DNA from: Curtobacterium sp. MCLR17_032
Lineage (GTDB): Bacteria; Actinomycetota; Actinomycetes; Actinomycetales; Microbacteriaceae
Length of the DNA stretch: 64,000 nt
Direction of reading: 5' to 3'
Assembly (NCBI RefSeq): GCF_003234795.2
Contig: NZ_CP126268.1
Coordinates: 496,001 to 560,000, forward strand
The translations under genes and the position numbers were made by a program. Shown here piece after piece: positions 7,734-59,325 of this stretch. Positions within the stretch are counted from its first letter, which is position 1. Every line of letters begins with the position of its first letter. Below the pieces are notes generated by a model. That model did not search any database. It was not told where the DNA came from and worked only from the letters and a program-made list of their open reading frames with translations.

Positions 7734-7786
7734 CGGACGGGAGGCCCGCAGCCGGTCCGCCGGACCGGCTGCGGGCCTCCCGTCCG
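7734..7786. terminator. 53-nt perfect palindrome, GACGGGAGGC family terminator
   Basis: Arms 7734-7759 and 7761-7786 are exact reverse complements (26 bp, one central base). It lies 4 nt after the stop-codon repeat and ends the efflux operon. It is the longest stem of this family in the window. Confidence 0.85.
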
Positions 7787-12073: not shown

Positions 12074-12121
12074 GACGGACGGGAGGCCCGGTGCCAGCTG
12101 GCACCGGGCCTCCCGTCCGTC
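12074..12121. terminator. 48-nt perfect palindrome, GACGGGAGGC family terminator
   Basis: Arms 12074-12097 and 12098-12121 are exact reverse complements with no spacer. It lies 12 nt after fruA and separates it from the convergent hexosaminidase gene. The 10 nt before it (GCACCACGTG) recur before the 34751 palindrome. Confidence 0.85.
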
Positions 12122-20944: not shown

Positions 20945-20987
20945 GCGACGGGAGGCGTGCACCCGGCTGGTGCGCGCCTCCCGTCGC
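20945..20987. terminator. Terminator hairpin, GACGGGAGGC family
   Basis: CGACGGGAGGCG (20946-20957) pairs exactly with 20975-20986, with further imperfect pairing inward. It lies 39 nt beyond the stop of the secreted-protein gene on the minus strand. Confidence 0.65.
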
Positions 20988-34750: not shown

Positions 34751-34800
34751 TGACGGACGGGAGGCTCCCCACCAGCTGGTGGGGAGCCTCCCGTCCGTCA
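34751..34800. terminator. 50-nt perfect palindrome, GACGGGAGGC family terminator
   Basis: Bases 34751-34775 and 34776-34800 are exact reverse complements. It separates the acidic membrane protein gene from the convergent aldo/keto reductase gene and so can serve both. Confidence 0.87.
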
Positions 34801-48541: not shown

Positions 48542-48604
48542 CCGGACGGGAGGCGCGGCGGACGCACCGTACGCTGGTCACGTGACCCAGGGCCTCCCGT
48601 CCGG
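48542..48604 (+). promoter_or_regulatory. GACGGGAGGC-family inverted repeat wrapped around the trmH start
   Basis: CCGGACGGGAGGC (48542-48554) and GCCTCCCGTCCGG (48592-48604) are exact reverse complements. The 37-nt loop contains the GTG start at 48582, and the right arm encodes residues 4-8. In mRNA this stem would enclose the translation start, so it could affect initiation. Confidence 0.6.
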
Positions 48605-49721: not shown

Positions 49722-50744
49722 CTAGCGCTGCGCGGTCGTCCGGCGGGCGACGAGCCTCGGCTCGACGAGCACCTCTGTCGTGGGCAGCGCCGGGTCCGCG
49801 ATCCGCTCGAGCAACCGGGCGCCCGCACCGCGGCCGATGTCGATGCTCCGGTCGTCGATGCTCGTGAGACCGACGTACCGAGAGGCCGCGATCGGGGTGT
49901 CGTCGTACCCGATCACCGAGATGTCCTCGGGGACGCGGAGTCCTCGCTCGGCGATCGCGGACATCGCACCGAGCGCGGTCACGTCGTTCGCGGCGAACAC
50001 CGCCGTCACGTCGGGGTGCTCGTCGAGCAGGCGGTGGGTGCCGGTGACGCCGGTCTCCTCGGTGACGTCGGCGGGCAGGACGACCGCGACCCCGGTGACC
50101 GACGAGCCGCCCGTGCCTGCTCCACCGGCGGCGTCGATGCCGGCGCGCCAGCCCTCGAGCCGGGCGTCACTGGCTGCCGACTGTCCGCCGACGAACCCGA
50201 GCCGCACGTGCCCGAGCTCGATGAGGTGCTCGGCCGCCATCCGGCCACCGGCCAGGTCGTCGTTCGCCACGGTGTCGGCGCGGGGCAGCGCTGCCCGGCC
50301 GCCGGCGACGACGACCGGGGTGCTGGTGGGGACGACGAGGTCCGGATCGGGTTCGCCCGCGATCACCAGACCCTCGACACGCATGGACAGGAAGCCCTCG
50401 ACGGGGGAGACGTCGAGCCCGGTGTTGAGGAAGCGGTCCGCGACGACGAGTCGGTGCCCCTGGTCCTGCAGTGATTCGCGCAGACCGGTGAGCAGGTCGA
50501 CGAACCACTGGTTCCGGAAGTCGTCGAGCACGACGCCGATGGTCCGGGAGCGGGTGCCGGCGAGGGACACCGCCGCGGTCGAGGGGCGGTAGTCGAGCTC
50601 CTGGATCGCCGCGAGGACTGCTGCCCGACGCTGCTCGCTGACCCGGGGAGATCGCTGCAGCACAAGGGACACGAGTGACTTCGACACCCCCGCGCGAGCG
50701 GCGACGTCGTAGATCGTCGCGGGCTTGGTGTTCCCCATCGTCAT
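49722..50744 (-). CDS. LacI-family transcriptional regulator
   Basis: 340-aa regulator. The helix-turn-helix ATIYDVAARAGVSKSLVSLVLQ is followed by hinge residues DYRPSTAAVSL and a periplasmic-binding-protein-like domain (GVVLDDFRNQWFVDLL, FAANDVTALGAM, ISVIGYDDTPIAA). The last motif binds sugar-type effectors. ATG 50744 has GGAGG six bases upstream; ATG 50738 (MGNTK) is also possible. No sugar transporter or hydrolase is adjacent, so the target operon is elsewhere. Confidence 0.88.
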   Translation of the reverse strand: MTMGNTKPATIYDVAARAGVSKSLVSLVLQRSPRVSEQRRAAVLAAIQELDYRPSTAAVSLAGTRSRTIGVVLDDFRNQWFVDLLTGLRESLQDQGHRLVVADRFLNTGLDVSPVEGFLSMRVEGLVIAGEPDPDLVVPTSTPVVVAGGRAALPRADTVANDDLAGGRMAAEHLIELGHVRLGFVGGQSAASDARLEGWRAGIDAAGGAGTGGSSVTGVAVVLPADVTEETGVTGTHRLLDEHPDVTAVFAANDVTALGAMSAIAERGLRVPEDISVIGYDDTPIAASRYVGLTSIDDRSIDIGRGAGARLLERIADPALPTTEVLVEPRLVARRTTAQR

Positions 50745-50925
50745 CCTCGACCTCCGGCTGCGCACCCGCCGGGTGCGTCCCGACGATCGTACCGCTGTCG
50801 CGCTCCACGCCCGGGCCCGGGCCGAACCGGAGCGGGCCGGACCGGGCCGGACCCGACCTGCACGTCGCGCCCGCAGCCTCCCGTCCGCCGCCTGCCGCCC
50901 GTCGCCCGCTGCCCGCCGCCCGCCG

Positions 50926-51620
50926 CCGGTTTAGTTCGGCTGCGCGCAACGGAAGTCCGTCCGAACCACGGCATGCCACGGTTCGGGCGGGTTCCTGTTG
51001 GGCCCAGGCGAGTAGGAGCCGAACGGGCCGCCGGGCCACCGGAGCCGCCGAGGCCGCCGGGCCGCCGTGCTGCGGGCGCCGAACGAGCCGCCGGGTCGCC
51101 GTGCTGAGGGCCCCTTGACCTGCACGGCGCGCCCGCAGCGTCCCGTCCGCCGTCCGCACCCGCTGCCGACGGTGTCGTTGGGCTGCGCACAACGGAAGCC
51201 CATCCGAACCACGGGATGCCGCGGTTCGGATGGGTTCCTGTTAGGCCCGTGGGGCCTCGGGGCCGCTATGCCGCCGGGGCGGTGGCGGTCCGCTCGCTGC
51301 CCCCGCCGCCGGTGTCGTTCGGTTGCGCACAACGGAAGCCCGTCCGAATCACGGGATGCCGCGGTTCGGGCGGGTTCCTGTTGGGCCCAGGCGAGTCGGA
51401 GCCGAACGGGCCGCCGGTGCCGCCGGTGCCGCCGGGCTGCCGGCGGCCCGACCTGTACTGCGCCCCCGTAGCGCCCCGTCCGCCGGTCGACCGCTGCCCC
51501 CTACCCCCTACCCCCTACCCCGCAGACGGTGTCGTTCGGCTGGGCACAACGGGAACCCGCCCGAACCGCGGGATGCAACGGTTCGGACGGGTTCCTGTTG
51601 GGCCCAGGCGGGGCGGAGCC
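50926..51620. repeat. Four-copy hairpin cassette array
   Basis: Copies around 50926-51012, 51169-51253, 51310-51394 and 51525-51612, all in one orientation, share GTGTCGTTCGGCTGCGCACA, a stem of about 20 bp (CCGAACC / GGTTCGG at its tip) and GTTCCTGTTGGGCCCAGGCG. In copy 2 a G-C pair of the stem is replaced by A-T on both arms. Spacers also repeat (CGCGCCCGCAGC, GTCCGCCG), and CCCCCTA occurs three times at 51497-51517. The whole 50745-51642 gap (about 900 bases) contains no gene I can support. Confidence 0.85.
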
Positions 51621-51642
51621 GCCCGCCCGGGCCGCGCCCGGC

Positions 51643-53724
51643 TCAGCCGATCAGGCTCGGCCGCAGGTCGCGCAGTGTCCGCGTCCGGGTCTGCCGCGCC
51701 GTCACCAGGTACGACACGAGCAGCGCCCCGAGCAGCCAGCAGAGCAGGACGCCCGCGTCGCTCCAGGCCGTGGCGAGCGAACCGCCGTACATCGTCTGCC
51801 GGATCGCATCGACGGAGTACGTCATCGGCAGGGCGAAGTGCAGCGCGGCGAGCGGCCCCGGCAGTGTCTGCCACGGGAAGGTGCCGCCCGCGGTGACGAG
51901 CTGGATGAGCATGAGCACCAGGCCGAGGAACTGTCCGACCGAGCCGAGCAGCACGTTCAGCGTCATGATGATCGCCGCGAAGGTCGCCGACGCCAGGATC
52001 ATGATGCCGACCGTCCCGCCGGCGTGCACCACGTCGAGGTCCAGGGCGTACCGGACGATGAGGAACAGTGCCGCCATCTGCACGACGCCGAGGAGCGCCG
52101 GGGTCAGCCAGCCGCCGAACACGACGCGCAACGGGCGTCGGACCGCGGTGATCGCCCGCTTCGAGATCGGCTTGAGGATGAGGAACAGCGCGTACATGCC
52201 GATCCAGGCGGCGAGCGAGATGAAGAACGGTGCCAGGCCGGCGCCGTAGTTCGACGCCGCGGCGACGTTGTCGTCCCCGACCTTCACCGGGTCCGAGATC
52301 ACCTTCGCCTGCTGGGCGCGCTGCGACGCGTCCGAGGCCGGGATCTTCGTCCGCCCCTTGTCGAGCTGGGACGCCAGTTCCGAGGAGCCGGACTCGAGCG
52401 AGTGCAGTCCCTTGGCCAGGGACGTCGCGCCCTGGTCGGCCGAGGCCGCACCGGTCGCGAGCTGCGACGCTCCGGAGGACAGCTGCGGCGCTGCGGCGGC
52501 GAGCTTCTGCGTCCCGCCGGCGACCTGCGCGGCGCCGTCGGACAGCGTCGACGCCCCGGAGGCCGCAGTCGCGATGCCGGAGGACAGCTGCGGTGCCGCG
52601 TTGGCGAGCGTCGTGGCGCCGTCCGACACCTGCTGCGCGCCGCTGCTCAGCTGGTCGATCTTCGCCGTGGTGGCACCGAGCTGCTGCTTCGCGTCCGCAC
52701 CGGAGCTGTTCGCCCGCTGCACGGCCGAGTCGACCGTGGCGGTGAGTGCCTGCTGCTGCTCGGGCGTCAGGGTGACGCCCTCCGGCAGGTTCGCCGTGAT
52801 GTCGGCGATCACGGTCTTCGTGTCGAGCGGCTGGATCGCCTGCACCGTCTTGTTGGCCGTGTCCACCTGCCGTGCGAGTTCGGCGTTGCCGGCGGCGACC
52901 TTCGCCGCCCCCTGCGCGAGCTGCTGCGTCTGCTCCGGCAGCGCGGCCGTCTGCTGCTGCGCCGACCGGAGGCCCGTGGCCAGCGACCCCGCACCGGTCG
53001 CCACCTGCTGCGCGCCGGAGTTCAGCGTCGCGGTCTGCGACGGCAGCGCGGCCGTGCTCGACGCCAGGGTGGAGGCACCCGAGGAGAGCTTCGCGGTGCC
53101 GGCCTCGAGCGAGTCTGCCCCGTTCGCGGCGGTCGTCGCTCCGGAGGCGAGCTTGCCCGCCCCGTCGACGGCGTCGCCCAGGCTGTCGCGGACGTCGGCG
53201 AGTCCGACGAGCAGCGTGCTCGCGGCTTCCTTGCCGACGCGTTCGGCGACGGCGGTCCGCATGGTCTTGCCGGCCTGCTCCGCGATGGTCGAGGCGAGGT
53301 ACGAGTTCGTGTCCGCCGTGGTCATCACGAGTTCGGCACGCTTCGGGTCGTCGGACTGCGCCGAGGCCAGAGACTCCGAGAAGTCGTGCGGGATCGTCAC
53401 GACGAAGTCGTAGGTGCCGTTGCGGACACCGGAGCGGGCGTCGGCGGCGGTGGTGCGCTTCCAGTCGAAGGCGCCGCCGTCGATGGCCTGCTTCGCGACG
53501 TCCTTGCCGTAGTCGACGTGTTCGCCGTCGAGGGTGGCGCCGCCGTCCTGGTCGACGATGGCCGCCGGGATCTGGTCGAGCTTGGCGTACGGGTCGCGGT
53601 TGGCCCAGAGGTACGCGCCCCCGTAGAGCAGCGGCACGCACATCAGCGCGATGAACGCGAGACGGGCGAGGGGGGTGGCGGTCAGGCGCGCGAGTTCGGC
53701 GCGGACGAGCGAGGGGATGGTCAC
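51643..53724 (-). CDS. YhgE/Pip domain membrane protein
   Basis: 693-aa protein. One membrane helix near residue 20 (LAFIALMCVPLLYGGAYLW) precedes a large extracellular part with many repeated SGASQLATGA / LSSGASTLA heptad-like units (about 190-470), then five to six C-terminal helices typical of the ABC-2 fold. YhgE/Pip proteins include the phage infection protein of Lactococcus, and relatives form ESX/T7SS-linked or drug exporters. The GTG start overlaps the stop of the ATPase-like gene. Confidence 0.88.
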   Translation of the reverse strand: MTIPSLVRAELARLTATPLARLAFIALMCVPLLYGGAYLWANRDPYAKLDQIPAAIVDQDGGATLDGEHVDYGKDVAKQAIDGGAFDWKRTTAADARSGVRNGTYDFVVTIPHDFSESLASAQSDDPKRAELVMTTADTNSYLASTIAEQAGKTMRTAVAERVGKEAASTLLVGLADVRDSLGDAVDGAGKLASGATTAANGADSLEAGTAKLSSGASTLASSTAALPSQTATLNSGAQQVATGAGSLATGLRSAQQQTAALPEQTQQLAQGAAKVAAGNAELARQVDTANKTVQAIQPLDTKTVIADITANLPEGVTLTPEQQQALTATVDSAVQRANSSGADAKQQLGATTAKIDQLSSGAQQVSDGATTLANAAPQLSSGIATAASGASTLSDGAAQVAGGTQKLAAAAPQLSSGASQLATGAASADQGATSLAKGLHSLESGSSELASQLDKGRTKIPASDASQRAQQAKVISDPVKVGDDNVAAASNYGAGLAPFFISLAAWIGMYALFLILKPISKRAITAVRRPLRVVFGGWLTPALLGVVQMAALFLIVRYALDLDVVHAGGTVGIMILASATFAAIIMTLNVLLGSVGQFLGLVLMLIQLVTAGGTFPWQTLPGPLAALHFALPMTYSVDAIRQTMYGGSLATAWSDAGVLLCWLLGALLVSYLVTARQTRTRTLRDLRPSLIG

Positions 53725-59275: not shown

Positions 59276-59325
59276 TGACGGACGGGAGGCCCGGTACCAG
59301 CTGGTACCGGGCCTCCCGTCCGTCA
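59276..59325. terminator. 50-nt perfect palindrome, GACGGGAGGC family terminator
   Basis: Bases 59276-59300 and 59301-59325 are exact reverse complements. It lies between the convergent 55-aa and 52-aa genes. Confidence 0.85.

Follow-up and report, generated by a model that had tools for sequence, protein, structure and literature searches.

What is the array of four hairpin-forming sequences that occupies a gene-free gap in the Curtobacterium sp. MCLR17_032 genome, what keeps the arms of these hairpins paired, and how did four copies come to lie side by side? The 64,000-nt stretch of DNA analysed here (NZ_CP126268.1, positions 496,001 to 560,000; hereafter the window) was originally predicted, from the sequence alone, to contain a four-copy structured cassette at this position, which implies a local structured RNA. 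The features of the locus are listed in Table 1.

Table 1. Features of the array locus, in window coordinates.
Feature	Positions	Strand	Remarks
Copy 1	50919..51017	+	palindromic core 50944-51003
Copy 2	51162..51260	+	core 51187-51246; bears the compensatory change from G-C to A-T
Copy 3	51302..51400	+	core 51327-51386
Copy 4	51519..51617	+	core 51544-51603
Two-copy unit (copies 1 and 2 with spacers)	50903..51280	.	self-alignment
Two-copy unit (copies 3 and 4 with spacers)	51291..51632	.	self-alignment
Gene-free gap holding the array	50745..51642	.	bounded by the lacI start and the membrane-protein operon's 3' end
LacI-family regulator, downstream neighbour	49722..50744	-	Pfam PF00356, PF13377
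ABC-2-type membrane protein	51643..53724	-	Pfam PF12698; the array lies past its stop codon

Much of the predicted anatomy is confirmed. There are four direct copies, which are about 99 nt long rather than the 85 nt first estimated, and their cores align without gaps. The distances of 243 and 140 nt between successive copies are as predicted, and the last one is 217 nt, not 215. The stem is longer than the predicted 20 bp or so, with 28 pairs, 20 to 23 of which are Watson-Crick in the window copies. The compensatory change is present, copy 2 having A-T where copies 1, 3 and 4 have G-C; the adjoining pair is T-G in copies 1 and 3 and T-A in copy 2, and in copy 4 it is a C-A mismatch. The spacers are repeated along with the hairpins, in line with the proposed larger unit: the unit comprising copies 1 and 2 is about 75% identical to that comprising copies 3 and 4. 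The profile match to copy 4 ends 35 nt from the stop codon of the operon. In the gap, which spans 898 nt, no gene is called by a home-made codon-usage gene caller. Of the two neighbours, the LacI-type regulator is supported by Pfam; the other is an ABC-2-type membrane protein for which the name YhgE comes only from the prediction.

The array is one site among many. With a sequence profile, at least 53 non-overlapping copies were identified at 32 sites of the 3.71-Mb own genome (G000; fetched loci plus the window); the fetched loci of a relative, G019, hold 34 copies distributed over 31 sites. Searching the own genome at the DNA level yields at least 49 matches on both strands (40 of 57 candidates scored), and a covariance model derived from 41 copies yields at least 105, which is a lower bound because 150 of the 6967 candidates were scored. 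Some copies are the same to the letter (the element in L046, L134 and L092, and likewise that in L138 and L087). Among the 60 genus genomes, own included, 53 have matches at E<=1e-6, the weak ones of which could partly represent other hairpins. At the same threshold, there is no match in 117 genomes that represent 84 further genera of the family; in this family-wide draw (120 genomes over 85 genera, stricter filters, 34 candidates scored per genome), matches are confined to the three genomes of the own genus. An exact pattern scan of a species-genome collection, from which own-genome records were possibly excluded, retrieves 16 stretches, all of them labelled Curtobacterium. We conclude that the repeat is a real family of REP-like palindromes, restricted to the genus in the genomes sampled, and it is almost certain that this family is a dispersed one. 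The local structured-RNA cassette is not borne out, given that the palindromes are scattered genome-wide and that the mismatch types described below carry no RNA-strand signal. Among the titles and abstract openings listed on Curtobacterium palindromes, REP and intergenic repeats, none describes the repeat, and text searches for Curtobacterium in PMC12306157 and PMC3733652 return no occurrence in either.

The core of the element is a 60-nt palindrome that consists of GC[A/C]CAAC.G.AACC, a variable 4-nt block, CGAACC.CGG, a short loop and the mirror image of these parts. The constant blocks lie at fixed spacing in 41 copies. The 4-nt block varies and covaries with its partner (columns 40-43 with 68-71); among the 87 copies, it takes the forms GGCT/AGCC (14), CGCT/AGCG (9), GGCC/GGCC (7), GCCC/GGGC (6) and further ones, not all of which are paired. 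A search of the genome for the half-site GCACAACNGNAACC gives 43 occurrences, compared to 0 for a reversed control; 42 of the 43 fall within known copies, and hence no larger element bounded by such ends is seen. The one half-site outside all known copies is GCACAACGGCAACC, at G000:C1:649057-649070. Both the fixed spacing of the constant blocks and the half-site counts would fit a recognition site for a sequence-specific DNA protein, such as a nucleoid protein, a topoisomerase or a non-Y1 recombinase that also spreads the repeat, with the constant blocks as contacts. A dimer site needs no pairing in the 4-nt block, yet this block covaries, and we consider such an explanation quite improbable.

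For the analysis of covariation, 41 own copies were aligned over the 28 stem pairs, the weakest of the 42 being excluded. Standard pairs account for 85.5% of the cells in this alignment, against 82.0 in shuffled versions; 74 cells are changed on both sides, against 42.6; and the covariation score is 0.161, against 0.108. None of 500 shuffles reaches any of these three values, and slid versions have covariation scores of 0.033-0.098. Two of the five alignment measures are unexceptional, namely, the 12 pairs with two-sided changes (reached by 74 of the 500 shuffles) and the 32 further pair types (64 of 500), and the RNAalifold covariation term on the same alignment is about zero (0.06 kcal/mol). 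Because the shuffle control ignores relatedness, more weight is due to a comparison of orthologs.

This comparison covers the elements present as one copy per site in G000 as well as in G019, 17 in all. The cores are identical at 945 of 1020 positions (92.6%), with no gaps, whereas the remaining non-coding spacer, in alignments with 1276 gap columns, is 78.2% identical (1685 of 2155 aligned bases); a cruder count over flanks of 60 nt, which takes in some coding sequence and scores gaps and ragged ends as differences, gives 1870 of 2968. The neighbouring genes are 81-98% identical at the DNA level. Thus, the core evolves more slowly than the surrounding spacer. In the arms, 60 sites have changed, among which are six two-sided stem changes, all Watson-Crick in both genomes. 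Under independence and a uniform rate, about 1.9 two-sided pairs are expected (Poisson 0.013); when a third of the expected two-sided pairs are counted as paired, the Poisson value is 5e-5. Paired changes in the arms are, then, commoner than expected, in support of the predicted maintenance of pairing.

Pairing could also be preserved without functional selection. The palindromes might be selfish or inert, REP/MITE-like elements in which one arm serves as template for the other through quasipalindrome template switching, a mechanism documented in E. coli (PMC7202029). Between G000 and G019, the one-sided changes from Watson-Crick pair to mismatch or back include 17 A-C and 15 G-T (and 11 others), nearly equal numbers, as if the type of mismatch were irrelevant, and copy numbers differ between genomes, both of which agree with this possibility. 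Taken alone, it fails to explain a core that is 92.6% identical and ungapped next to a gapped spacer at 78.2%, or the two fixed constant blocks and the preference for convergent gaps, and we regard it as unlikely.

The mismatches also bear on the level, DNA or RNA, at which the palindrome is maintained. Selection on the sense strand of an RNA should favour G-T. Across all 87 copies in consensus orientation, there are 120 A-C cells and 85 G-T cells; when the 33 tandem-site copies are read in the direction of transcription, the counts are 59 and 42. The mean per copy at tandem sites is 1.26 for G-T and 1.56 for A-C, and among the 20 tandem sites, G-T is higher at 5 and A-C at 10; these sites (11 own and 9 from G019) are not independent, many being orthologous. 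G-T is not above A-C, which argues against selection on one RNA strand. Parity at convergent sites is uninformative because both strands may be transcribed there. We therefore rejected a structured RNA on the sense strand, and likewise an intrinsic terminator with a T-run: a scan of positions 50700-51700 detects no terminator-like site, that is, a hairpin followed by a T-run. A structured RNA, or an intrinsic terminator, that functions on a single transcribed strand would be compatible with the frequency of copies past stop codons and with the stable folds on both strands, where the window copies have folding z-scores of -3.2 to -7.9 and only 0 to 2 of 200 dinucleotide shuffles fold as well. 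It is nevertheless very unlikely, considering that G-U is not favoured at the 20 transcript-oriented tandem sites, that the window array has no T-tract, and that no Rfam family reaches its gathering score in the window, all matches in the gap being sub-threshold.

The copies lie between genes, and no copy among the 53 extends more than 30 nt into a called gene. Gaps of at least 100 nt in the fetched own loci were classed as convergent, tandem or divergent. The counts are 19, 11 and 1, respectively, for gaps with the element (one of the 32 sites, at a locus edge, is left out), compared to 13, 34 and 26 for gaps without it, so that the element is enriched between convergent genes (Fisher p 4e-5 for convergent gaps against the rest). 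A gene end adjoins 50 of the copies, and for 23 of these the distance past the nearest stop codon is 20-60 nt; the other 27 fall outside this range and include array copies that are further out. Of the 32 convergent gaps counted above, 13 lack the element. With the element masked, the first 90 nt were scanned for perfect inverted repeats of at least 10 bp. Where the gap lacks the element, 24 of 97 gene ends have such a repeat; where the gap holds it, 6 of 49 do; and among gene starts the figure is 2 of 117. Mononucleotide shuffles give 1, 0 and 1, respectively. Inverted repeats are commoner at gene ends than at gene starts, so hairpins are a gene-end feature here. The contrast between 24 of 97 and 6 of 49 is weak, and the repeat family may share the gene-end slot with other hairpins.

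Single copies occupy 21 of the 32 own sites, and four of the sites, none of which is exceeded by any other, carry four copies, the window array thus being one of the larger ones. We traced the history of the sites in relatives. When 27 own sites were mapped by both flanks in one G019 locus, all 27 proved to be occupied in G019, an estimate of shared occupancy that is biased upward because the G019 loci were fetched for carrying elements; the copy number is equal at 18 of these sites, higher in G000 at 9 and higher in G019 at none. It appears, therefore, that most sites predate the split of the two genomes and that the numbers at the sites change faster. Of the five remaining own sites, the one in L042 at 3506 matches an element in L119, that in L128 has a different sequence in G019, and the others (L032, L042 at 6856, and L038) were assigned no G019 counterpart. 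Conversely, the G019 element in L103 faces a different sequence in G000.

The window site itself has four copies in the own genome and one in G019, which is 92% identical to copy 3 across 91 nt. Such differences in copy number at fixed sites are those of a tandem VNTR array. The membrane-protein gene is present in 59 of the 60 genus genomes, and 30 of these loci were fetched. By profile, 24 of the 30 have no copy; the others are the own genome and G019, G048 with five copies, G049 with three, and G017 and G055 with one each, the G055 copy being weak (E 4e-4). The gap retains its two flanks in G024, G018 and G035, where the profile finds no copy of the repeat. Inspection by eye reveals another hairpin after the operon in G018, G035 and G034, and none in G024, that is, in three of four relatives without the element. 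The outcome that was to refute the prediction was not obtained: two-sided changes in the arms exceed expectation, and homologous loci hold the element in differing numbers. That the array arose by local duplication or loss is highly probable. Two further arrangements were observed. In L108 (3488-4533) of G019, two small predicted genes lie between copies that are adjacent in G000 (L033, 3439-3727). In G034 (G034:C12:249126-249659), there are four copies about 150 nt apart, and L021 is similar, with three copies at 154 nt.

RAYT transposases are the usual explanation for REP repeats. The Y1 transposase domain PF01797, to which the RAYT and IS200/IS605 transposases belong, is found neither in the own genome nor in any of the 60 genus genomes (own included), in a search for which the control was positive in 5 of 14 known genomes. 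A RAYT/IS200 mobiliser was rejected on this ground. By eye, the GTAG/CGTC head tetranucleotide is found at the palindrome foot in none of the 42 aligned copies. At two inspected sites where the element is present in only one genome (L128 and L103), most of the spacer differs besides the element; the spacer having been exchanged, no target duplication is readable, and neither site offers a clean junction between empty and occupied states. Composite transposons flanked by inverted copies, as in L029 and L042, were considered and rejected: the gene within the L029 pair has no Pfam hit, and the L042 pair encloses two genes, one of which was scanned and is a response regulator, the other being L042 4334-6826. 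The outer boxes GCCCAAC/GTTGGGC resemble those of integron attC sites; this candidate was set aside, with 21 of the 32 own sites being single copies beside other genes.

The interpretation we favour, with a probability of about 0.55, is that of a dispersed family of REP-like palindromes that would act as 3'-boundary elements, spread earlier in the genus and formed arrays via tandem duplication and loss. The boundary role by itself, suggested by the place of the copies, the sharing of the slot and the slow evolution of the core, is a tentative proposal, with odds slightly short of even. At gene ends, the palindrome might stop or insulate transcription arriving from either side, or protect transcript ends, and it could act either as a hairpin or as protein-bound palindromic DNA. 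The family would have spread earlier in the genus by a mechanism not found here, and most of the examined sites are common to two close relatives. Under the favoured interpretation, the copy number at a site would shift by duplication or loss of the element together with its spacer, and the four copies in the window would be one such array.

The repeat is not the only palindrome in this genome. A second, more abundant family has the form GGACGGGAGGC-N-GCCTCCCGTCC, with an inner block that varies and is often paired. It is represented in the window at 7736-7784, 12078-12117, 20947-20985, 34756-34795, 48545-48601 (where the interior is long and poorly paired) and 59281-59320. The own genome contains 118 exact copies, compared to 0 for the reversed control; two other members of the genus have 27 and 30, and the other 117 of the 120 family genomes have none. 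Of 20 copies matched loosely within fetched loci of the own genome, convergent gaps hold 10, tandem gaps 8, and a divergent gap and a called gene 1 each. Furthermore, at two neighbouring gaps where the repeat is present in only one of G000 and G019 (L128 1140-1300 and 3430-3600; L103 330-640 and 3420-3640), the other genome shows ACACCGGTGT-like palindromic motifs, possibly a third family. A more speculative and, in our estimate, unlikely generalization is that such genus-specific palindrome families, the Curtobacterium repeat and the GGACGGGAGGC family alike, share a design of constant arm blocks around a varying, mostly paired block, and are interchangeable two-way boundaries of gene ends, maintained at the DNA level and spread by a yet-unknown non-Y1 enzyme.

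A genus that carries REP-like palindromes, in which no RAYT gene was found and cores at shared sites are conserved amid spacer turnover, provides a system for asking what spreads and what preserves palindromic repeats. The boundary role, if true, would help to explain how convergent genes end in a high-GC actinobacterium without T-tract terminators, and the arrays could serve as strain-typing markers.

Among known systems, bidirectional intrinsic terminators are similar in that a hairpin lies between convergent genes, often soon past the stop codons; unlike them, the window array has no T-tract, and the repeat is strongly conserved in sequence, restricted to the genus and found in arrays. Mycobacterial interspersed repeats of the MIRU type are likewise actinobacterial and intergenic, and form tandem arrays with strain-variable copy number, but are not known to be long palindromes. 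PMC2267715 names them, and the stem-loop-containing repeat families that it lists for bacterial genomes resemble our repeat as repeated hairpins found by structure plus sequence; a text search of that paper returns no occurrence of 'actino', Leifsonia or Streptomyces. In overall habit, the repeat resembles the REP/BIME elements associated with RAYT (TnpA-REP), which are likewise short intergenic palindromes, many per genome, sometimes clustered and restricted to a species or genus. In PMC2817692, RAYT presence tracks REP number in most of the strains; for the Curtobacterium repeat, no Y1 transposase was found in the 60 sampled genus genomes and no GTAG/CGTC head is visible by eye in the aligned copies, and its 60-nt core compares with 20-40 bp for REP in PMC3733652. 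The family is therefore REP-like rather than a RAYT-linked REP, and because the two features that define RAYT-associated REPs, the transposase and the head motif, were both absent on testing, it appears to be a separate variant of dispersed palindromic repeats.
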